Shown one piece after another: positions 6,705 to 21,881 of a stretch of 44,427 nucleotides of DNA; position 1 is the first letter of the stretch, and each line of letters starts with the position of its first letter. The notes below the pieces were generated by a model, which did no database searches, was not told the DNA's origin, and saw nothing but the letters and a program-made list of their open reading frames with translations. Position numbers and translations under genes: made by a program. Source of the stretch: a virus; IMG/VR virus record IMGVR_UViG_3300023172_000055, positions 1 to 44,427 of that record. One strand, written 5' to 3'.

Positions 6705-6912
6705 GCAACTCGAGGCGCAGGGGTACTATGTCATTAAGTTAATAAAGACAAATAAGAACGGCATACCAGACCTCATTGCCATACCTCCAGACTGCGAAGT
6801 GCTTTTTTCCGAAGTCAAAAGGCCGACGGGAAAGCTGTCGGAGTTGCAGAAGTATAGATTAAAAGAATTAGATAAACATGGATGCAAGACAGAAGTATAC
6901 CGAGGCGAATGA
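6667..6912 (+). CDS. VRR-NUC domain nuclease
   Basis: An 81-residue stand-alone VRR-NUC domain. Visible motifs are an N-terminal helix with KRIRQLEAQGYYVIKL, then GIPDL at residues 32-36 (catalytic Asp35), SEVKRPTGKLSELQ at 48-61 (Glu49-x-Lys51 and Gln61), and a final strand. The spacing matches the minimal viral members of the family, which cut branched DNA. The gene overlaps the helicase end by 38 bases, starting at ATGATG, and overlaps the next gene by 35 bases. It probably resolves replication or recombination intermediates together with the helicase. Confidence 0.9.
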   Translation: MMTEQQIQGKRIRQLEAQGYYVIKLIKTNKNGIPDLIAIPPDCEVLFSEVKRPTGKLSELQKYRLKELDKHGCKTEVYRGE

Positions 6913-10490: not shown

Positions 10491-13400
10491 CTACTCTCCA
10501 AGCATAGCCTTTCGGTACGCCTCAATCTCCTTATCGCTTTTCTTCTTATCTCCTCCTTCTATAACATAGTCAGAGTAGTTGAAGAGCCTGAGCAACGCCT
10601 CGCCCGGGTCCTTTGAATCGGGGATGGCTTCGATATTCTTAACCATCTTGTGGATGTTAGAAGCAGGGATGCCCGTCAGTTCTGTGATGTGATTAATCAT
10701 TCTCCACATGTACTTATCCTTCTTCACTGGGTCAGTAGCCTTGGTGAATGATTTGATATCCTTAAATACCAATCCAATCTGCTCGAATACAGGGAGCGTA
10801 GTAAATTCTCCAGCCCACGGAGCGCCACTAACGAGGTCCTTGACTGCCGTAAGAATATCTCCAACAATAAACAAGGCGTTGAGGTTGCCAAGCAATGCCG
10901 CACGGCCAAGTGCCTGCTCATCCTCCTCATCCCAATCGGAAAGTAATCCGGGAAGGCCGAGGGCAACCCATTGGAACACCATAGGAACAAGGATGTGATA
11001 TGTCACTACTCGTCTTGCGATATCACCATATCCGTCCTGTGTTGGTAGACCCTTCATCTTTCTACTTAGGCTCATGAAGGCGCTCATCTCTCTGCGAAGC
11101 AACGCCTTTGGTGAAGATAAGAACACATTCAAGAATCGGTATGCAGGGCCGCCAGTTTGGAACCAGTCCTTGTTGGTAATGCCACTATCTTGCTGCGTTC
11201 TGAGTGCCTGTTTAGTCGCCTTTTCGCTCGCATACTTCTGAGCCCCAGCCTCGTCACCGGGATTCTTCTCCAAGTACTGCTGCTTGTAGTACAAGTAGTT
11301 AGCAAGACCACCCATGATACCACCCTTGTCACCCTGCTTAACCAAGTACATGAGTGAGTTCATTAGGTTTCTCGTCTGCTCTTTTGTGACTGTAATATCC
11401 TTGCCACCTACCTTTTTATTTACAAGGATTGGAGACTCATTGAGAGAACCCTCATAGCTGTATCCTTCTAGGATATCTCCAATGTTTGAGTTCTCATATC
11501 TCTCCTGAAACAGGGGCGAGTTAGCATACCACTCCTTCCATAGTTTGCGAGCCTGAGGAAGAGCGAGGGCAGTGTACTTACTCCAGTTTGTGTAGCCGAT
11601 ATAGTCAGCAAAGGCAAATGCAGAAGTGAGCTGCTTCAGGAATACCGTTGGGTTGATGGCAAGCTTAGACTTGATATACATACCCATCATAGCATTGGCA
11701 AGCTGAGATTCGTTTTGAGAGATTCCCTTTCTTGCAACCTTTTGCATCATGTCCTTCAGAGCGTCGTATGTATTCTTACCACCGAGCTCTATGATTGCTG
11801 CCTTTACGTTCGCATTGTCAAGAACCTTGCTCAGGTCTCTCATGGCCTCAGCATAGGCACGGAAGTATTCCATGTCTTTGAGGTATGAGTTGAGCACCGA
11901 GTTGCCATCGACACTTTGAATGGGACGAGAGTTCTTTACCCTCGCCTTGGTAGACTGGCCACCAACGCTGGTCTGGTATTCAGAAGAGCCGGCCAGTAAG
12001 TCGAACTGAAGGTCGCCCTCTTCGCCCTCTCTAAAAATTCTGCCTGCATAGAACTGATTCCATGGCATGTTGGTTCTATAGATGGCCTTGTATACCTCGT
12101 TGTATTTTTCATACAGGCTGGGATACAGCTCGTTAACCTGCCAGTCTGCCCACTCTTTTGTCTTGGCATCAAGTCTGTCGGTAATCTGCTGCATGATTCT
12201 AGCATACTGGTTCTTACCAAACTTCTTCTCAAAGGATGCCACATTAGCGGGGTCCTTGTATTGATTATACAAGTAGTAAGCTTGGTTATTACTGAGAACA
12301 ACCTCAAGCTTTTCAAGCTGTCTAATTATCTGCGCCTTACGTTTGTTGGTGGCAGAGTCGTATTCCTTCTTCAGCTCATTAGCCTTCTCCTCGTTAAGCC
12401 ATATGACATTCTTGTCATTGATGAGGTCTTTACTCACAACAGGCACAGCATTACGCTGCATCTCAAGCTTGTAGTTATCGCCCCATATCTCCTTGGCTTT
12501 GTTGCTGATGATATCAAACACTTGTTTCTTGCCAGAGACAAAAGAAACTCGAGCCTTGAAGAGCCTGTCATCAAAGATTTCCATGAGCTTGTTGCCGCCC
12601 ATGGCCTCAGACAGTCCGCTTGATATTCTTTGAAGCAATAGAGCGAGGTCCATTTGCTTGGTGAAGAACTCATCCACGCTGTTCTTTATCTTACCAACAA
12701 AGGACTTAATACCTCCATCAAAGGTCTTCCTTCTCTGCTCCTTGTTCTTAAGTTCTATAAGCTTCTCCTTGTTAGCCTCTTCACCCTCCTCGGAAAGGTC
12801 GAGCTCCTCACCCGTGATGCCATTGTAGGCGTCAGATATAAGATGCTCATAGTAAGCACGTTGAGCATCAATCTCTCCGCGCATCTGCGAGCGACCCGTA
12901 GATATAAGAGTACGGAGGTTGTCTCTCACGGCAGCAAGGGCGTCTACCTTATGCGGGTTGTTATCCTCCATAAGCATCGCCTCGTTGTACATAAGAGCAA
13001 TAGAGAGCGCGTTCATCTCGTCGCTCTCTTCCTGCGTCAGCGCGGTCTTTACAGACAGCTTATTGAATCTCTTCTCCTGCTTCTGCATTAGGTCCTCAAT
13101 GTTCTGAGCAGACATACCCTCATCTACGAGCATTGGGCTCTTCTTATTGGTAAGGGAACCAAGGATGTTCTGCAAGGACACGCTTACTCTGCCCACTCTA
13201 CGACCCGATACCATTCTAGTGGTGGGGGTCTTCAGGAGTTTGTCAATAGCAGCACTTAGGTCACGCACATAGAACTCGTTGACGAATCCAGTGACGCGCT
13301 CCATCACTGCGGGCAGTGAGTCTGGAGTGGCGTCTGTGATAGCCTTCATCAGCTTGTTGACATCAGCCTTATTGAATACGGTCTTAGGCAAGTTCTTGCG

Positions 13401-16400
13401 GATGAACATGCGCATAGCGCGCTTAGCTTTTTCAAGTTCAGCCGCGCCCTTCTTCATGTTGGAAAGCATCGCACGCAACGCCTTGAAGTCCGCTTGGAAC
13501 TTCTTGTTGGCGGCGGGGATGTTCAATGCCTTGTCCAATCCAATCTGCATCTCCGCCTGAATGGTTGGGCTCTGCGCTTTAAAGAAATCAGAGTTAACCA
13601 ACAGCTCCTGAGCCTTGGCTCTTACATCCGCAGCGTTGTGTAGCAACACGCCCAATCTCTTGGCATTAGCATAGCGCTTAATCTTCTTGGTCAACTCGTT
13701 GAAGAACGCCTGACCCTGAGCAACACCGCCCTCCGCATTGGCGAAGCCATCGGGGAGCATAGTGCCCATCACATCGATAGGCACAGCGAGTGCTGACTTA
13801 ATCTCGGTGGCGCTGTATCCCTGCTCCTTCAAGAAAGCAGCTATAACTCTATCGGTGTAGCCCCTCTCGCGCACATCATTGATGAACTCGTAGATGCTCT
13901 GCGTTCCGGCGCCATAGCCTTGGCGGCGTAGTGAGTTGGCGCTTCCGCCCCCGCCAATAACTCTAAGGAATGGGTTGAAGAACTTCCCATCCAGCGTCAT
14001 GTGGTAACCGGAGACCTCACCGGTGCGCTCATCACGTCTAGGCTTTGTGCCGAGCCTGTCATCAAGCTTGCGCACAGCGATTCTAAACTGAGCGGGGTCG
14101 GTAGTAGCGGGAACAAATCCCTTATGGTTCATATTAAAGCGGTGACCTAGCTCCTGAGCCTGACTCTGAGGCTTAGCGCTCCAGTTCTGGTATGCAGTGG
14201 CGTCGCCCCTCTTCTGACGGATAGCGGGAGGTGGTTCAACGCCAGCCTCTGCCCTTAGGTATTCACCGTGGAGTCTCTGTATATCATTAAAGAGCTCTTG
14301 ACTTATAAATCCGTCTTTAAGCTCTTTGCGTGCTAAAGAATATCTTTCTGGGTCAACGCTCTTAGCCAAGAGATTGCCAGAGCTTTCCAGATACACACTG
14401 CTAATAAATTCACCATGGTCATCCCCGGCTATTTCCTCAATACTTCCGAGCGATTTCACTCTACTTGAAGTTGAAAAAAACGAACCGCCAACCGTAACTA
14501 GATTTGATATGACAATGGGAGTCGAGCCGGGACCCTCTTCTGAGCCTTCCCAAATAAGTAGGCCTGAAGCAACAGTCTTGAGCTTTCCGGTATCCTTGAA
14601 ATTTTCTGACGGCTTAAACTGTAACCCGCCACCCACATATTCAAGGTCGCCAAAAGAATCTACTTCTACATTAATGCTAACTTCTCCGGAGACGCTTCTT
14701 AAAGACCCAAGATTTATAGCGTGACCCGCGTAATCGTCTGACGCCGAAATGGTCAAATAATTTACAGTTTCTAAAGCCCCCAAGTCAAACCCTGAATCAC
14801 CTAAGCGGACTCTAAGAGAACCGACAATTTCTTTTAAGTGTGGACCAAGGGTTCTTAGTGTTTTATTGTCAGTTATTTGTAACGACCCTTCAAGTTTTTT
14901 TAATTTACCTAGGTCCCTCAGTCTTGATTTCTCTCCTATCACAATTGGGCTTGACCTAACAATTTCCTCAAGTTCTCCAAAGCTTTCTAAAGTATCCGGA
15001 ACCCCGTATTCAAAACGTCCAAGACGCTTCATCTTGCCAAGCGTTATTATTGAAGGCGGTAAATTTAAATCCCCTTCAACAACCTTCAACTCCCCAAGAG
15101 ACATTAATTTTTGTGCATATGACAAATCAAGATTGTCACCTACACGCTCTAATTTACCAAGAGACTCAAGCTGCCCTGCGCTATACAAGTTAACATTATC
15201 TTGGACAGTGGTTAAATTGCCAAGGCTTCTTATGTCGTTTACTATATGCACACCTTGGTCGACACTTGTTACTCCTATATGAAAATCTAAGGAGTTTTCT
15301 TGTATGAATAAATCACCGCCAACTAACTCAATATTACCGGTGCTGTTTTTATCATATATGGTTGCGTCCCCTTCAACAGTTTTTAAATTAGCGGGGATGA
15401 GCTGTGACTGTTGGTTGTAATGTCCCGCGATGACCCTCAAGCTTTTAGCACTATTGGAGATAGCGTTTGAAACCATTCGGACGGCCCCCTCTTCGCCATA
15501 CGCCTCAACGAGGCTTGCAAAAATGTCAAACGATGTAAAGCTCCCTCCCGAATAGAGCACTACATAGTCTGTAGCATGCGACACATAATCGGATGGGTCC
15601 TCGTTATTTATCGCTTCACCGAATAACTCAAACACCCTAGCTTTTCCTTTTATCTCAAGCCTGCTGCCAATTTGCTTCCCATCTCTCATGGCCTCTATCG
15701 CCGCAGCTTTTAAGCCCATACGAATTAAATTGTCGCCATAAAAGTTTCCAATAAGAACCTCGGTCTCCGGGGTTAATTCTTCCATGCCTCGGGCAACTTT
15801 TCCTTTTATCTCAGGAGCAACATCGTTAGCATCAATCTTTAAATTAAAGTCCTCATTGAGTCGCTCGACGAAACCATTTCCCCCATACTGCATGAAGCTG
15901 TATCGGTTTGCTTCAGCAGTAAGGCTAGATACCGTTCTAAAGTCCTGCAAGGTTAAAGGGCGCTTCGATATCTCCTCCCTAAACATCCTTATCTTTTCGT
16001 TGAAGCGCTGCCCCTCTGCCCATTTCTCACCGCCCGGAACGGCGCCACTTTCCAAGAACTGCTCAGCTACAGGGCGCATCTTTGGCTCCATCTGTTGTCC
16101 TTCAAGGATACCTCGCACCTCTTCAATGCTTCCTCTTCTTGTTCTTACGGCAATACGGGCTTTTGGCACGCCGCCTTTATCCGTTGTTACAAAGACATAG
16201 AAATCGCCGCCCCTAAGCTGCCCTTCGGCTCCGGTCTTTGTGCACCATGGCGTATCCTGAACAAGCTGACTTAAGGCGTCTGCGTTGTCATTAATATCTT
16301 GCTCACTAACACCGTCGCCACCGGGGAACTTAAGCCACGTGCCCTCAGCGGTATCGTACATCTTAAATGCCTTAACAACATTGGGCGCGTTGGCCATCAT

Positions 16401-19400
16401 CGTCTCAACGTATTCTTTTAATACTGCGTCTGATGATATGGTCTGCTCGCCAACCATTCTACTAATGGTGCCCTCGTCGTATGGCGTGTAGTTACGAAGA
16501 GTTTGGCGATTTCTCTTTTTGTAGCTCCCTGTTCTAGCGTCGTAGTTATGTGTGACGACAGCATCGAAAAGCATCAAGCGAATGGCGGGGGGTATACCGA
16601 TTTCATGTTGTAGAAAGGCTGCCCATTTCTTTATAGTGTCATCTTGAGTGACTTGATATTCGTTTAGCACACGCATTCTGTGATAATCACTTTCTGCCTT
16701 CTCTTCAATTTCCGCAACCGTTTTCCTACTGAGACCCATCCGGTCTGCTTCTTTTGCCTGACCAAGAATATCTTTGGTGATGTTATCGCCATCGTATATT
16801 TTAAGAAAGTCAATTATATAACTATCAGTTTGGTTAACCTGTGCGCCTATAGCAAACGCTATAGATTCTAGAAATCTATATACAGCCTGTGCTGGAGAGC
16901 TGCTTTTTGGGAATAGGCGGTTGGCCAATAGGATGACAGCATTAACATCTTTGAGATTTGTTTTTTTAACGTCTGCCCTATTAACATCGGCGGATGTATC
17001 TGAATCAAATAATAGGCTATCTAAAACCCTTTCAACAATGCCTTCGGCTCTACTCGCTTGAAGGATTTCTTCGCTGGTGGGCTCTACTCCATCTTTTTTA
17101 TAGCCCATTGCCGTGAAAAAGCGACCGCTATCTTCAAGAACTGGAAGTATCTCCCCCAGCATCTTAATGGCTTCCTGCTGGTACTTCTCTTGGATACCAG
17201 CCTTCTGATACTTAATGCCTTCAGTCGGAGTGATGGTAATCAATCCCTTCTTCTGACGCATAGCGTTCTTAGTTTCAAGGGTCTGAGGTGAGCGCTTCAT
17301 GCTTTGCGCACCATCATAAGCTACTCGAGTAACAGAGAATCCAAACTTCTCATAGAACTTAGTCAAGTCCTTGGCCATCTTTGCGAGCTTGGCTTCAGAA
17401 TACTCTTTACGAGTTACCGGGTCTCCTTGATATCGCTTTGTTGGATACGCATCAAGTTTAATAGTCAGGCCAAGTTTATCGGCGGCTGCCGTAATACGAT
17501 TCATTAACCTAGTGCCAGCTCCAGTTCCAGCAAGCCTTGGGTCAAATAATTCAATGCCATCTATGTATATAACATTACCCTCTTTAGGGCTGATACGTAT
17601 GTTCATTTCAAGCTCCGGATTCTCAACCGAAGTGTCCATAGTCATAAATCCACCCCGCATAATAATGCTTGGGAATATGTGGAAGTCTGGGTCGTTTGCC
17701 ATTTCGGCAAACAAGTTGGCTACATTGTTGTAAGGCTGATAGAATTCTCTACGCCAATTGAAATCCTCATCCATGAAGTACACCCTCACTTCGTCCGCGG
17801 TAAGAGCATCATCGGTACTTGTTGGATATGGTTTTCTTCCCTTTCTGTTCAGGCTTTCACGAGCCTCCTCGTTGGTCATCGCCTTCTTCTGACGAAGTGC
17901 TGGCTTCTTGACCTTGATGTTCTCGATAGCCATCTGCTGCTCTCCCGTAAGCTGAGCTGCTGGGAGGGCATCTTCTAGAGTAATGACCGTGGGCTCCTCA
18001 ACTATATCGGTAGGAATCTCAGCGACATACTGAGCGCCCATGGCGGAGCGTGCAGCCTGAGGCTTCGCTCTTTCTCCAATCTCTATCTGAGGACCGGTTA
18101 CTGGCTTGGCCTTGGGATATACTTTGCGCACATCCACGGCCTTATCGAACACCATTATGGGTGTCCCCTCAATAACAAACGGATAAGAGGGGTGGGTATC
18201 CATTCCCTCCTTGCGGGTATCGATTACCTTGCTGTCCTTATTGAACTGAATAGCAGATATAATATCTCCATATTGTACCTTCTCAAGAGATGGGTCGTTG
18301 ACATAGTCAAGAACGCCCGTCTTCATCTTTGCCGTTGGCATCAATGGCGGTATCCCAAAGCGCTCATAAGAGGTGGCAGAGAAGAACGACTTAGTGAATG
18401 CACCACGAGTGTCATATGAGATTACTCCCTTGCCTTCAATGGGCATAAGGTCTCTCAGGTCTTCCAAGGTTTCTATTTGTCCCTTGTGTCCTTTCTTCTC
18501 TAGCTGTTCGGCAATAGTAACGCCGGGAGTTCTTGATGCTGTTCTAAGTTTGGCGTTGACATAGTCAATCAATTCCTGTGGAGACGCGCCCTTCATGACG
18601 GCGTTCTGAATTTCCGCCATTAGATATTCATAAAAGGAAAGGCTACCAGCAATACCATCAGAAGCCTGAGACATCACCAATCCTACACCATCGCTCTCTT
18701 TTACTTTCTTTAGAATCTTGTTGGCTGCCGTCTCGCTAGTAAACGCCCAGCCCATACCGCTACCATAGGGGTATAGGTATCCACCCTTGAAGAAGTATCT
18801 CGTTCCAGATGGGCTCTCAATTTCACCATAGGTTGCTTGGTCGGCTGCAAATACAAACGCATTAGCGCCCGACAAGTCGTTGATGCTACCGCGCTTGATA
18901 GCCTCTATGTCGATGCCACCTCGGTTAAGCTGCTGCTTGCGTGTGGCGTTTATGTTTATAGAATCTGAGCCCTTCTCATTAATGTTCTCAGCAACAGTGC
19001 CAGATGCGACTGTTGAGCCGGGCTCCGCAGCGCTATCAAGAACAACGAGGTCAGCCGCTACAATCGCCTTGCCTCTCGCAACCTTGCGGGCGAGGACGTC
19101 AAGCATAGCGGTTACGCTCTCGTCGGTTTTACCAAACTCAGAAGGAAGAGACACATTGAATGCTCTCGCCAATCGCTTAATAAACTCTACAATCTGTCCC
19201 TTAACCGTCGACGTTGCGTTGACGTACTCTCTAGACAGCGCACCCATGAGCTGAGCGAGGCGCTCCTCATTCTGGAAGTTCTCGTCGTAGTTCTGTGCGA
19301 AGGCATCAATCTCTTTTGCTAGGGCACTGTCATCCGCAAGAGTCTTGCGGACATTCTCCATCATGGTCTTGGCCACAGCCTGAGCCTTGGAGTCCGTTCT

Positions 19401-21881
19401 AACCTTGTTCAAGAATATAGCATGGAACACCTCGTGCGCTACCGTGCTTGCGTCCGCTGTCGCAAGGTTGATATGGATTACGCCATCGTTGTAGGCGCCC
19501 TCATCTGTCGCTGCTGTTCCGGTGTTCTTAGAGAACTCCTCGCCTGTGGCGTGAAGTATAATCTTCACATCGGGCAACAGCTTTTGAATGGCCTTAGCTC
19601 CACGAACGGCGAGCTTCTCAATGCGAGTCTGCTCCTTAGTGAGTGGCTGTGCGCCCGTCTCATTAACGACCAGATTGTCGGAGAGCTTTCTACCCCCCTC
19701 GAATACGGCAGCAACCTCTTCATTTGTGGCGGCAGCTACTGGTGCTTGACCAAGCGCTTCAGCCTTGAGGTCTTCGAGTTGTTGTTGCTCCTCCTCAGTG
19801 AGGGTTACTTCTTCTTCGACACGCGCTTCGGGAGCGACTTCAGGTTCTGCTTGGGGTGCTCCTTCCGCCACTTCTTCGCCAACTCTGGCTTCTGGCTGAA
19901 CAGGAACTTCACTTGTTGCTTGCTCTTGAATGGCATCTTCTTGTGATTTTGTATATAGTTCTTTTATCTTCTCATCAATCTTAGCGACCTTTTCTTTTGC
20001 TATAGACTGAACCGCATCGTCCTTACCGGCGACCTTTTCTAAAGTTAACTGCTTTTCTCTTACGAGATTAAACATCTCTGCCTGAGCTTCCTCCGGCATA
20101 TCCTCGGGGATTTTACCAAGAACGTCAATGAACTCATCAACATTGGCAATCACCCTATCACCTTCGGCTCGTTCCATCTTACCAGCAGCAACCTGTTGGT
20201 CGATGTACTCAGATACTTTTTCTCTTTTAATTGCGCCAACAAATTCCTTGGCCTGCTTGAAGTCTTCTGATGTAACACCCTCAGGTCTAGAGAATGCACC
20301 GACTGTTCCAGCTATAATGCCACCGCCAATAGCTTCTTGAGCTCCGGCATATAGCACGTCCATCACAATTTCTTGTGCGGTCTTTGGCTTGAAAATATTC
20401 TTGCCTTGAGAGTCGGTTACATATTGATTAATCAAATCATTTGACAACTCCTGAAGAGCACCCGTCTCAAATTCAGAGAGGCCACCCTTTGTAATCTTAC
20501 TGGCGTATCCCCTTAATCCCTTGGCTTCTTGGCGAACAACTCTTTCAAAAGCCTCGGCTCCCACGTCTTCGCCCATTCCAGCAAGTCGGGTAAGAACCTT
20601 ACCCGCCAAAATTCTTTTCACCATGGGCATCCCATTCAGGGTGTTTCTCAAACCAACTCTTTCAAGTATTCCCTCAATGCCAGCGGTGGCGAGTAAGTAT
20701 GTTTGTCTTTGAGCCTCAGTCATTTGAAGGTCTGGATTCGCAGCAAGCTCATTTGCTAATTGCTCTTCCGCCGCCTGATAAGACATGTCCATAAAAGATA
20801 AGCCCATCGTAGAAGCAGATGTTGCCATCGCGGGCAACGAGGTCATTAGTCCACGAACGGCACCCGAAAAGAATCTATCCTGAAGCTCTCTCTCTTTTCT
20901 TTTATCAATGGCGTATCCAGCCTTTTTGATAATTTCCTCTCGGCCCGCTTCCTTTATATATGGTAGAACTTCATTCTCAATACCCTTGTCTACCGTGGCA
21001 AAGTATTCCATGTATGCCGCATTGGCCGCAAGGGCATCTGAGTAGCCATCATCAATGGCCTTCTTATACATAACATATAAGTCGGGGTGCTTATCTTTTT
21101 TGTCCTCAATAAAGCGAGCAATCACCTGACCGTTCAGTGAGTTCTCTTCTCGGATATTGTTAACCCAGTTTCCAAATCCCTCAATGAGACCGTTCCACTT
21201 GTCGCCAACCCACTCTCCAGCAGTAACTTCTACTGGCTCAAGTAATTCTGATTTATCCTCTTTGGGTTTTACTAAACCTTTTACTACTTGGTTAAATGCA
21301 ACAAATGGGGCGGCAAGCGTTGGAACCTCTGGAGCCTTTATCTCCTCGGGTTGCGGCATCTCAACGGCGCCCTCTTCAATGCGACCCTCCATAACTGCCT
21401 GAGCCTCTGGAGATATCCCTTCTTCGCCAGCAATAGCGCCGGTCTCAAGGTCCATAGTAATGCCCTCCTCGGTAACAACCTCGGTTGGTCTAGTCTCATA
21501 TGGCACAGGAATGGGCTGCTCTTGTGGAGCAACACCGCCCGCCTCTTGGATAGCCTGCTGCGTCTGTGGCGCTAAGCGTGGAGACGGGGGGAGTGTAAGG
21601 TCACGCCCGGGTAAAGAAGCCAAAGTAGGCGTCTCCATAGGAGAAGCCAACTGCTCTTCTTGAAAAGAAACCTCTGAAGGTTCTTCTTTTTTTTTTAATG
21701 GAGCATACTTTACATCGAACTCTTCACGCCCTTTGGTATATAAGCCGTCTCTAGTTACAACACCAAATACTTTATCTCTATATTGTGGGTCTTCGTACTT
21801 AACTATAAACTCTTCATATGAGTTGGTATAGTAACCCTTAGATACGAGGGTGTCGTATAACTTTTTGAGCTCGTCATTCAT
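10491..21881 (-). CDS. giant polyvalent / internal virion-type protein, 3796 aa
   Basis: A single uninterrupted frame of 3796 residues. N to C: two short repeats (KLYDTLVSKGYYTNS..., residues 1-60); low-complexity P/E linkers; glycine/alanine-rich membrane-active stretches near 340-360 and 510-530; a zincin motif HEVFH at 816-820 with NEERLAQL at 871 as a likely third ligand; a GNAT-like segment near 1400-1525 (LAGTGAGTRLMNRI); a PWCTKTG...FYVFVTTD domain near 1875; LRR-like repeats about 2170-2495; and a helical C-terminal third with a hydrophobic stretch near 3630-3655. This matches the polyvalent proteins described by Iyer and colleagues, which are packaged and delivered with phage DNA. 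It lies last in the virion operon, after the internal virion proteins. The short motif RQK[K/R] recurs at domain borders. Individual catalytic activities are inferred, not shown. Confidence 0.85.
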   Translation of the reverse strand: MNDELKKLYDTLVSKGYYTNSYEEFIVKYEDPQYRDKVFGVVTRDGLYTKGREEFDVKYAPLKKKEEPSEVSFQEEQLASPMETPTLASLPGRDLTLPPSPRLAPQTQQAIQEAGGVAPQEQPIPVPYETRPTEVVTEEGITMDLETGAIAGEEGISPEAQAVMEGRIEEGAVEMPQPEEIKAPEVPTLAAPFVAFNQVVKGLVKPKEDKSELLEPVEVTAGEWVGDKWNGLIEGFGNWVNNIREENSLNGQVIARFIEDKKDKHPDLYVMYKKAIDDGYSDALAANAAYMEYFATVDKGIENEVLPYIKEAGREEIIKKAGYAIDKRKERELQDRFFSGAVRGLMTSLPAMATSASTMGLSFMDMSYQAAEEQLANELAANPDLQMTEAQRQTYLLATAGIEGILERVGLRNTLNGMPMVKRILAGKVLTRLAGMGEDVGAEAFERVVRQEAKGLRGYASKITKGGLSEFETGALQELSNDLINQYVTDSQGKNIFKPKTAQEIVMDVLYAGAQEAIGGGIIAGTVGAFSRPEGVTSEDFKQAKEFVGAIKREKVSEYIDQQVAAGKMERAEGDRVIANVDEFIDVLGKIPEDMPEEAQAEMFNLVREKQLTLEKVAGKDDAVQSIAKEKVAKIDEKIKELYTKSQEDAIQEQATSEVPVQPEARVGEEVAEGAPQAEPEVAPEARVEEEVTLTEEEQQQLEDLKAEALGQAPVAAATNEEVAAVFEGGRKLSDNLVVNETGAQPLTKEQTRIEKLAVRGAKAIQKLLPDVKIILHATGEEFSKNTGTAATDEGAYNDGVIHINLATADASTVAHEVFHAIFLNKVRTDSKAQAVAKTMMENVRKTLADDSALAKEIDAFAQNYDENFQNEERLAQLMGALSREYVNATSTVKGQIVEFIKRLARAFNVSLPSEFGKTDESVTAMLDVLARKVARGKAIVAADLVVLDSAAEPGSTVASGTVAENINEKGSDSININATRKQQLNRGGIDIEAIKRGSINDLSGANAFVFAADQATYGEIESPSGTRYFFKGGYLYPYGSGMGWAFTSETAANKILKKVKESDGVGLVMSQASDGIAGSLSFYEYLMAEIQNAVMKGASPQELIDYVNAKLRTASRTPGVTIAEQLEKKGHKGQIETLEDLRDLMPIEGKGVISYDTRGAFTKSFFSATSYERFGIPPLMPTAKMKTGVLDYVNDPSLEKVQYGDIISAIQFNKDSKVIDTRKEGMDTHPSYPFVIEGTPIMVFDKAVDVRKVYPKAKPVTGPQIEIGERAKPQAARSAMGAQYVAEIPTDIVEEPTVITLEDALPAAQLTGEQQMAIENIKVKKPALRQKKAMTNEEARESLNRKGRKPYPTSTDDALTADEVRVYFMDEDFNWRREFYQPYNNVANLFAEMANDPDFHIFPSIIMRGGFMTMDTSVENPELEMNIRISPKEGNVIYIDGIELFDPRLAGTGAGTRLMNRITAAADKLGLTIKLDAYPTKRYQGDPVTRKEYSEAKLAKMAKDLTKFYEKFGFSVTRVAYDGAQSMKRSPQTLETKNAMRQKKGLITITPTEGIKYQKAGIQEKYQQEAIKMLGEILPVLEDSGRFFTAMGYKKDGVEPTSEEILQASRAEGIVERVLDSLLFDSDTSADVNRADVKKTNLKDVNAVILLANRLFPKSSSPAQAVYRFLESIAFAIGAQVNQTDSYIIDFLKIYDGDNITKDILGQAKEADRMGLSRKTVAEIEEKAESDYHRMRVLNEYQVTQDDTIKKWAAFLQHEIGIPPAIRLMLFDAVVTHNYDARTGSYKKRNRQTLRNYTPYDEGTISRMVGEQTISSDAVLKEYVETMMANAPNVVKAFKMYDTAEGTWLKFPGGDGVSEQDINDNADALSQLVQDTPWCTKTGAEGQLRGGDFYVFVTTDKGGVPKARIAVRTRRGSIEEVRGILEGQQMEPKMRPVAEQFLESGAVPGGEKWAEGQRFNEKIRMFREEISKRPLTLQDFRTVSSLTAEANRYSFMQYGGNGFVERLNEDFNLKIDANDVAPEIKGKVARGMEELTPETEVLIGNFYGDNLIRMGLKAAAIEAMRDGKQIGSRLEIKGKARVFELFGEAINNEDPSDYVSHATDYVVLYSGGSFTSFDIFASLVEAYGEEGAVRMVSNAISNSAKSLRVIAGHYNQQSQLIPANLKTVEGDATIYDKNSTGNIELVGGDLFIQENSLDFHIGVTSVDQGVHIVNDIRSLGNLTTVQDNVNLYSAGQLESLGKLERVGDNLDLSYAQKLMSLGELKVVEGDLNLPPSIITLGKMKRLGRFEYGVPDTLESFGELEEIVRSSPIVIGEKSRLRDLGKLKKLEGSLQITDNKTLRTLGPHLKEIVGSLRVRLGDSGFDLGALETVNYLTISASDDYAGHAINLGSLRSVSGEVSINVEVDSFGDLEYVGGGLQFKPSENFKDTGKLKTVASGLLIWEGSEEGPGSTPIVISNLVTVGGSFFSTSSRVKSLGSIEEIAGDDHGEFISSVYLESSGNLLAKSVDPERYSLARKELKDGFISQELFNDIQRLHGEYLRAEAGVEPPPAIRQKRGDATAYQNWSAKPQSQAQELGHRFNMNHKGFVPATTDPAQFRIAVRKLDDRLGTKPRRDERTGEVSGYHMTLDGKFFNPFLRVIGGGGSANSLRRQGYGAGTQSIYEFINDVRERGYTDRVIAAFLKEQGYSATEIKSALAVPIDVMGTMLPDGFANAEGGVAQGQAFFNELTKKIKRYANAKRLGVLLHNAADVRAKAQELLVNSDFFKAQSPTIQAEMQIGLDKALNIPAANKKFQADFKALRAMLSNMKKGAAELEKAKRAMRMFIRKNLPKTVFNKADVNKLMKAITDATPDSLPAVMERVTGFVNEFYVRDLSAAIDKLLKTPTTRMVSGRRVGRVSVSLQNILGSLTNKKSPMLVDEGMSAQNIEDLMQKQEKRFNKLSVKTALTQEESDEMNALSIALMYNEAMLMEDNNPHKVDALAAVRDNLRTLISTGRSQMRGEIDAQRAYYEHLISDAYNGITGEELDLSEEGEEANKEKLIELKNKEQRRKTFDGGIKSFVGKIKNSVDEFFTKQMDLALLLQRISSGLSEAMGGNKLMEIFDDRLFKARVSFVSGKKQVFDIISNKAKEIWGDNYKLEMQRNAVPVVSKDLINDKNVIWLNEEKANELKKEYDSATNKRKAQIIRQLEKLEVVLSNNQAYYLYNQYKDPANVASFEKKFGKNQYARIMQQITDRLDAKTKEWADWQVNELYPSLYEKYNEVYKAIYRTNMPWNQFYAGRIFREGEEGDLQFDLLAGSSEYQTSVGGQSTKARVKNSRPIQSVDGNSVLNSYLKDMEYFRAYAEAMRDLSKVLDNANVKAAIIELGGKNTYDALKDMMQKVARKGISQNESQLANAMMGMYIKSKLAINPTVFLKQLTSAFAFADYIGYTNWSKYTALALPQARKLWKEWYANSPLFQERYENSNIGDILEGYSYEGSLNESPILVNKKVGGKDITVTKEQTRNLMNSLMYLVKQGDKGGIMGGLANYLYYKQQYLEKNPGDEAGAQKYASEKATKQALRTQQDSGITNKDWFQTGGPAYRFLNVFLSSPKALLRREMSAFMSLSRKMKGLPTQDGYGDIARRVVTYHILVPMVFQWVALGLPGLLSDWDEEDEQALGRAALLGNLNALFIVGDILTAVKDLVSGAPWAGEFTTLPVFEQIGLVFKDIKSFTKATDPVKKDKYMWRMINHITELTGIPASNIHKMVKNIEAIPDSKDPGEALLRLFNYSDYVIEGGDKKKSDKEIEAYRKAMLGE
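14205..14225 (-). repeat. RQKR linker motif, copy 3 (AIRQKRG)
   Basis: Residues 2553-2559 of the giant protein read AIRQKRG. The copy lies between the end of the LRR-like block and the helical C-terminal third, after a PPPAI turn. It matches the copies at residues 1328-1334 and 1540-1546. Confidence 0.7.
14400..15370 (-). repeat. LRR-like repeat block inside the giant gene
   Basis: About residues 2170-2495 of the giant protein consist of tandem units of roughly 19-24 residues, with the pattern SLGxLxxVxGxLxLxxS (for example SLGNLTTVQDNVNLYSAG, SLGKLERVGDNLDLSYA, SLGELKVVEGDLNL). This is a leucine-rich-repeat-like solenoid, usually used for protein binding. The DNA here is visibly richer in A+T than the rest of the gene: 38% G+C in bases 14881-14940 against 58% in 13441-13500. 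Confidence 0.75.
17244..17264 (-). repeat. RQKK linker motif, copy 2 (AMRQKKG)
   Basis: Residues 1540-1546 of the giant protein read AMRQKKG, just after the GNAT-like segment. A degenerate relative, KYQKAG, follows at 1557-1562. Confidence 0.7.
17880..17900 (-). repeat. RQKK linker motif, copy 1 (ALRQKKA)
   Basis: Residues 1328-1334 of the giant protein read ALRQKKA, just before the GNAT-like segment. Together with copy 2 it brackets a piece of about 205 residues. Confidence 0.7.

Follow-up and report, generated by a model that had tools for sequence, protein, structure and literature searches.

The polyvalent proteins of phages and conjugative elements were described in 2017 by Iyer et al., who reported the metallopeptidase to be their most common domain type and proposed release by autoproteolysis, with a comparison to the polyproteins of RNA viruses (PMC5512222). 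The subject of the present analysis is a giant protein of this type, P0001 (3,796 amino acids), encoded on the minus strand at 10491..21881 of a 44,427-nucleotide stretch of viral DNA (IMG/VR virus record IMGVR_UViG_3300023172_000055, positions 1 to 44,427), hereafter called the window; according to the listing of open reading frames (ORFs) and the translation, it holds all the domains and sites located below, which lie on the same strand. P0001 shares with the described polyvalent proteins of phages its giant size, its multidomain layout, a zincin-like metallopeptidase and a GNAT-like domain; no cleavage site or common linker motif was found in PMC5512222, the main text of which lacks the word "linker". 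In P0001 and its relatives, sites of the form R-x-[Q/S] stand at domain borders throughout the family and are enriched from the end of the metallopeptidase to the C-terminal module. This motif would probably serve as the recognition site for dividing the phage polyprotein into its domains, the most likely enzyme being the metallopeptidase embedded in the chain. Self-processing was already proposed in 2017; the present analysis contributes a candidate site code.

DdrB of phage P1 likewise bears a metallopeptidase, in this case of the HELGHH type, and is reported to be processed to approximately 76 kDa before packaging (PMC5512222). The loose pattern finds candidates in DdrB at RQSK 340, RFSY 756 and RWQM 764, none of which, by our estimate, clearly gives 76 kDa. 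In the polyproteins of RNA viruses, a single chain contains an embedded protease, a short motif recurs at the domain borders and one site lies right behind the protease; the differences are that their protease is of another type and that the present protein belongs to a double-stranded DNA phage, and no common domains are claimed. The "structural protein" of Flavobacterium phage elemo (MT497075) aligns clearly with P0001 over a single stretch, residues 739-1071 (34% identity), and contains the border-like RFQA, RQQK and RMQK (residues 1656, 2052 and 2275 of L005:2-11005), a spelling R-x-Q-K where the window has R-Q-K-K. The host strain of elemo is Flavobacterium sp. BAL314. The site code was not found in the searched literature on the motif and on processing, the coverage of which excludes preprints and most subscription papers, and term searches of PMC10172136 and PMC10136315 returned nothing on the processing of such proteins.

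The initial annotation had reported three copies of a basic motif in P0001, ALRQKKA (residues 1328-1334), AMRQKKG (1540-1546) and AIRQKRG (2553-2559), and all three are found at these places, RQK[KR] occurring nowhere else in the protein: site 1 (RQKK, residues 1330-1333, 17883..17894), site 2 (RQKK, 1542-1545, 17247..17258) and site 3 (RQKR, 2555-2558, 14208..14219). It had overlooked a further site, RKQQ at residues 981-984 (site 0, 18930..18941), which marks the C-terminal border of the metallopeptidase and aligns with REQQ in L014 and RESQ in L018 (relatives are denoted by locus number). When the whole protein was shuffled 20,000 times, A[LMI]RQK[KR] occurred once in 23 shuffles and twice in none, and RQK[KR] occurred twice in 53 and three times in none; the pattern having been picked after it was seen, these figures overstate the case, and it is the relatives that carry the argument.

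The metallopeptidase occupies residues 740-939 (19065..19664; hidden Markov model match of 7e-69 to the copy in L004, a near-identical contig in whose stop-to-stop ORF the residue numbers are 3 higher than in the window), with its HEVFH at residues 816-820 (19422-19436). In alignment A3, in which 36 of 37 rows cover the domain, the HExxH is nearly invariant and two downstream glutamates (EE) are invariant; a zincin-like peptidase with these features is common, though not universal, among polyvalent proteins. Between site 0 and site 1 lies a well-modelled domain (approximately residues 985-1254, 18120..18929) covered by approximately 19 to 38 BLAST hits, and the GNAT-like domain (approximately residues 1363-1534, 17280..17795) follows site 1. 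In the structure model of residues 735-1560 (37 rows), the GNAT-like fold is of moderate confidence, with parts under a predicted local distance difference test score (pLDDT) of 50; the best Foldseek matches in the PDB are nearly all GNAT acetyltransferases, the best E-value being 0.008 and none reaching 0.001. Sites 1 and 2 bracket this piece as the initial annotation had it, but not "exactly": site 1 lies approximately 33 residues ahead of the fold, in a stretch under pLDDT 50, and site 2 approximately 8 residues past it. Unlike these two, site 0 stands in a part of the model that is of moderate confidence (mean pLDDT of the block 75), approximately 26 residues behind a disordered stretch. 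The supposed degenerate copy KYQKAG (residues 1557-1562, 17196..17213) is ruled out by the alignment, L076 and L080 having KYARAG in the same, domain-internal place.

Further along the chain stands a β-repeat block resembling leucine-rich repeats (approximately residues 2154-2484, 14430..15422), corresponding to residues 615-945 of a second model (residues 1540-2620), mostly at high pLDDT. This block repeats the form LGxLxxVGGxLxL, is modelled as a regular β repeat and has weak similarity to LRR_14, below the cut-off. Site 3 does follow the block, approximately 70 residues downstream and directly ahead of the conserved C-terminal module (approximately residues 2570-3796, 10494..14174), which is seen in BLAST alignments to approximately 25 relatives (some of them near-copies), in alignment A5 and in a scan. 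As the second model rests on a 4-row alignment and is poor except for the repeat block, it gives no information on disorder at site 3. One ORF thus combines a metallopeptidase, a GNAT-like fold and a block resembling leucine-rich repeats, i.e. several unrelated effector-like domains in a single chain.

The relatives were gathered from IMG/VR through the peptidase (80 loci, the best 80 of 126 confirmed stretches), through an ADP-ribosyltransferase (ART)-like domain found in some of them (79 loci, from the best 80 of 345) and through the C-terminal module (80 loci, the best 80 of 164), and from genome contigs through the ART-like domain (79 loci, from the best 80 of 144). Redundancy was reduced from 84 to 49 giants at 70% identity over 30% of the length, and of later sets, 184 of 280 remained at 60% and 179 of 290 at 70% (for the counts of the E-K spelling). 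The sets used for borders, pattern ranking and giant counts are nearly all peptidase-selected (80 loci, L004 and three named phages). With the whole ORF as query, the sole match was a near-identical contig, and a DNA similarity search of the phage collection gave none. Annotated phages gave few matches: the metallopeptidase matched elemo (68 records, 34% identity), and the C-terminal part matched Tenacibaculum phage Gundel_1 and MW202828, with weak hits to two cyanophages.

In these relatives, RQKK is a local spelling of a motif that marks borders across the family and has the form R-x-[Q/S] (most often R-[K/Q]-Q-[K/L/I/V]), because the homologues of the window sites read otherwise. The homologue of site 1 in L031 is KKPAVRKQKAVSNEEARESL (RKQK) and those of site 2 are APRKQKGLI in L076 and SVREQKGLI in L080, the length being unchanged at the motif in these direct homologues; the border of site 3 reads RKQK, RRQK, RQQR, REQK, RQQK and similar, with LEQRS in L051 and TRES in L082. 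In the window itself, three of the four sites are RQK[K/R] and the fourth, RKQQ 981, has the usual order. The expectation of the initial annotation that the motif would be kept at the domain borders of homologues is therefore borne out overall for R-x-[QS] and fails for RQKK, and the motif is not specifically basic, as spellings such as RKQK and REQK attest. As a family motif RQKK is rejected, the wider set showing no enrichment of RQK[KR] (4 against 4.0; 4 against 3.8) and three of the four occurrences being the window's own. R[QK]Q[KLVI], by comparison, occurs 73 times in the giants against 10.5 in shuffled sequences.

The sites stand at borders. Among 83 sites in the 49 nonredundant giants, 84% lie within 15 amino acids of the edge of a homology block, against 36% of the other arginines, a share that no resampling out of 1,000 reached; conversely, alignments span the site with 25 residues on each side for 67% of the sites against 84% of the other arginines. 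A ranking of 7,076 patterns in these 49 relatives, made independently of the motif, places RKQ first, R.QK second and R.Q third in border enrichment (49/63, 44/59 and 146/335 at borders, with a background of 0.232), followed by the start of the metallopeptidase domain (PNV, LP.V) and by linker-like compositions such as T.E. The domains that follow the sites differ from one another: GENANLSQNVR, SPEVS..KLTEDG, APNGKPSNLN, the peptidase itself, the GNAT-like piece and the C-terminal module. L050 (ORF from base 6818, residues 1326-3280) offers the clearest example of the pattern, with eight RQQ[KLVR] and two RMQV sites in one protein, several of them, by eye, directly ahead of ADP-ribosyltransferase-like pieces.

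Their position along the chain is also uneven. In 38 proteins with both the peptidase and the C module, the middle part holds 34 sites against 2.9 expected, the C-module border 16 against 1.8 and the C module 33 against 19.4; the N-terminal part holds 9 against 8.1, the N border of the peptidase 2 against 0.5 and the inside of the peptidase none against 1.2. R.[QS] closely follows the peptidase in 54 of 81 cases (21.7 expected). On the N side the signal is weak, with 5 sites lying 66-79 residues before the HExxH among 49 proteins. The border of the C module, for which proteins of less than 1,500 amino acids or with a module start before residue 250 were left out, has a site in 22 of 38 relatives with this peptidase (3.0 expected) and in 3 of 11 without it (0.9 expected), so that homologues do not, on the whole, lack the motif there. 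In the ART-selected set, R-x-Q is found 19 times against 4.3 in 13 ORFs with this peptidase and 36 times against 23.9 in 93 ORFs without it; some of the latter are partial, and since some loci end at contig ends, "no peptidase" may mean that it lies outside the piece. A link of the sites to the metallopeptidase is, on these distributions, likely. Other C-module proteins (L262, L281, L250, L259, L264, L268, L278) have a different peptidase, HE[FMY]GH[IV]W, shortly before the C module, and in 6 of 8 nonredundant proteins of this type no site is recognised at the C-module border.

Furthermore, the spelling tends to be common to a whole protein. When proteins were grouped by the class found in the linker before the APNG/ART-like domain and this linker was masked, the same class was enriched elsewhere in the chain: RKQ 12 against 1.4 (7 proteins), RQQ 10 against 0.1 (3), [KR][FY]S 16 against 4.6 (7) and [KR][FY]Q 6 against 1.4 (4). 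Other spellings also occur, with RKQ (3 against 0.4) and RMQ (2 against 0.0) in the RQQ group and L[FY]Q (5 against 1.1) among the proteins of the [KR][FY]Q class; with 2 members, the L[FY]Q group is itself too small, and 42 further proteins have no class at that linker. The large proteins of L104, L138, L142 and L155 have IR[FY][DE].GG ahead of the APNG domain, perhaps another spelling.

A more distant spelling, to which a clade has switched at several borders together, is found in four nonredundant proteins with an HEVMHAV peptidase: E-K-[A/N/S]-Q occurs between three and seven times in each, L263 and L267 having seven. Among the 6 HExMH proteins, which include the unswitched L116 and L269, EK.Q[KI] is found 15 times against 1.0 and R.Q 3 times against 3.9; in the 73 HExFH proteins, the figures are 7 against 15.1 and 168 against 44.2. 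At the orthologous border ahead of DFKESY, L009 has PRQQI and L277 has EKKQI, and at the C-terminal border of the metallopeptidase the window has TRKQQLNRGGID where L263 has TEKNQKDRGGID.

Several observations weigh against cutting by the embedded peptidase. The methionine of HExMH is not the cause of the switch, because L302 has an ordinary HEIFH peptidase (HEIFHAI) and nevertheless spells E-K-N-Q. On both trees, the five E-K proteins (L302 and the four with HEVMHAV) group as a single clade (SH-aLRT 99 for the peptidase, 100 for the C module); the switch is a single event and so is not attributable to the peptidase. More generally, the spelling is weakly clustered on the peptidase tree (25 changes for six labels against 31.1 when shuffled, 1 of 200 shuffles being as low; for RKQ 14 changes against 18.3, 18/500; for RQQ 11 against 11.9, 154/500). 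When relatedness is controlled, 6 independent pairs relate peptidase type to the border site with a median p of 1 (range 0.25-1). At the C-module border, 16 of the 38 nonredundant relatives with this peptidase type lack a recognised site, the alignment in several of them beginning too late to place the border, and the three sites found among the 11 peptidase-less relatives are REQ forms, possibly due to chance. Of 58 peptidase proteins, 8 have no site under the labelling patterns; by eye, a looser [RK]-x-[QS] stands just behind the peptidase in these, a form present in approximately 30% of random windows. Proteins that lack this peptidase likewise show enrichment of [KR][FY]S (82 against 45.3), and in the window protein no site was found ahead of the metallopeptidase. 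Finally, the N4 virion RNA polymerase, a giant virion protein that, like P0001, has a metallopeptidase domain, is packaged unprocessed (PMC5512222).

The sites might instead be cut by another protease, either the phage head-maturation protease or a protease of the host, which we consider unlikely. The relatedness-controlled pairs and the enrichment of [KR][FY]S outside this peptidase would suit such an enzyme, the link to the metallopeptidase being likely and no more, and the internal head protein DarA of P1 is annotated as proteolytically processed in head maturation. However, a general head-protease site would be expected beyond the giants, and R[QK]Q[KLVI] shows little enrichment in the remaining ORFs of these loci (10 against 5.5), 7 of the 10 being one conserved site of one protein family; moreover, the enrichment starts at the end of the peptidase and the spelling switches by clade. 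OmpT-like host proteases are specific for a dibasic pair, which RQQL, RQQV and RFQA lack, and a dibasic host-protease site is judged unlikely from these spellings. As a separate observation, in a protein of 311-494 amino acids encoded by other ORFs of L014, L033, L047, L049, L070, L082 and L086, R-Q-Q-[LI] is conserved around residue 42, the context being DG[YFW]YS.

More doubtful still is a docking or packaging tag that would mark each domain and be bound by a partner, the chain staying uncut. One tag per domain and a common spelling would be expected in this case too, but such a tag would have no need to stay at borders, and it should accompany its domain wherever this stands. R-K-Q stands ahead of the SPETS/SPEVS domain in proteins that carry this domain downstream of the peptidase (e.g. 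L054, L046, L039), but the motif is absent before it in those that carry it upstream (L044, L069, L083, L087).

Passive flexible linkers spread with shuffled domains, or recombination sites in the DNA, are very improbable: site 1 does stand in a low-confidence stretch of the model, and CGT CAG AAG is common to the three window RQK copies, but R.[DEN] (17 against 32.6) and R.[AG] (24 against 29.7) are unenriched behind the peptidase (D.[QS], 37 against 29.1), the switch to E-K-x-Q occurs ahead of different domains, and the codons of the motif vary within one protein (in L054, for example, arginine is AGA, AGG or CGT). On this variety a DNA-level repeat or recombination site was rejected, and the sites are conserved as protein, not as DNA; recent copying among the three window copies is possible because they have these codons in common, CGT being 32 of 189 arginine codons. 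Processing sites fit better than passive linkers because the motif stands at borders, ahead of domains unrelated to one another and for the most part behind the metallopeptidase, and because its spelling tends to be protein-wide. The self-processing suggested by the initial annotation is partly supported by the same points, without the RQKK or basic form on which it had been built.

In the self-processing model, the embedded metallopeptidase would read the R-x-[Q/S] sites and cut the chain, thereby freeing the effector-like domains of the middle part from an uncut N-terminal part and from the C-terminal module; cutting might take place in the particle or after ejection. The C-terminal module, of approximately 1,200 residues, is found again in many metagenomic phages. 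It had no convincing match in whole-protein Pfam and PHROGs scans, its function not having been sought beyond these, and P0001 as a whole gave zero Pfam matches above the cut-off and no convincing PHROGs match. That the protein is phage-encoded follows from the virus record and from the genes beside the giant ORF, which match portal and virion structural families. A plus-strand gene of the window matches a BT4734-like primase domain and, together with the Flavobacterium and Tenacibaculum hits, this suggests a host among the Bacteroidota.

In conclusion, giant phage proteins hold many unknown domains that are thought to serve counter-defence and takeover of the host. If the proposed site code is true, the starts and ends of such domains would be readable from the sequence, and the code would predict the termini to be found in infected cells, which would make the suggestion of self-processing formulated in 2017 directly testable. 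Could the same principle hold beyond this family? We advance only tentatively that double-stranded DNA phages of this group would produce and deliver true polyproteins in which an embedded metallopeptidase cuts at an R-x-[Q/S] code ahead of each effector domain, the protease and the spelling co-evolving by clade, and that this code, spelt differently ([KR]-[FY]-S, [KR]-[FY]-Q, E-K-x-Q), would run across the polyvalent proteins in general. If so, effector domains could be delimited by the site alone.

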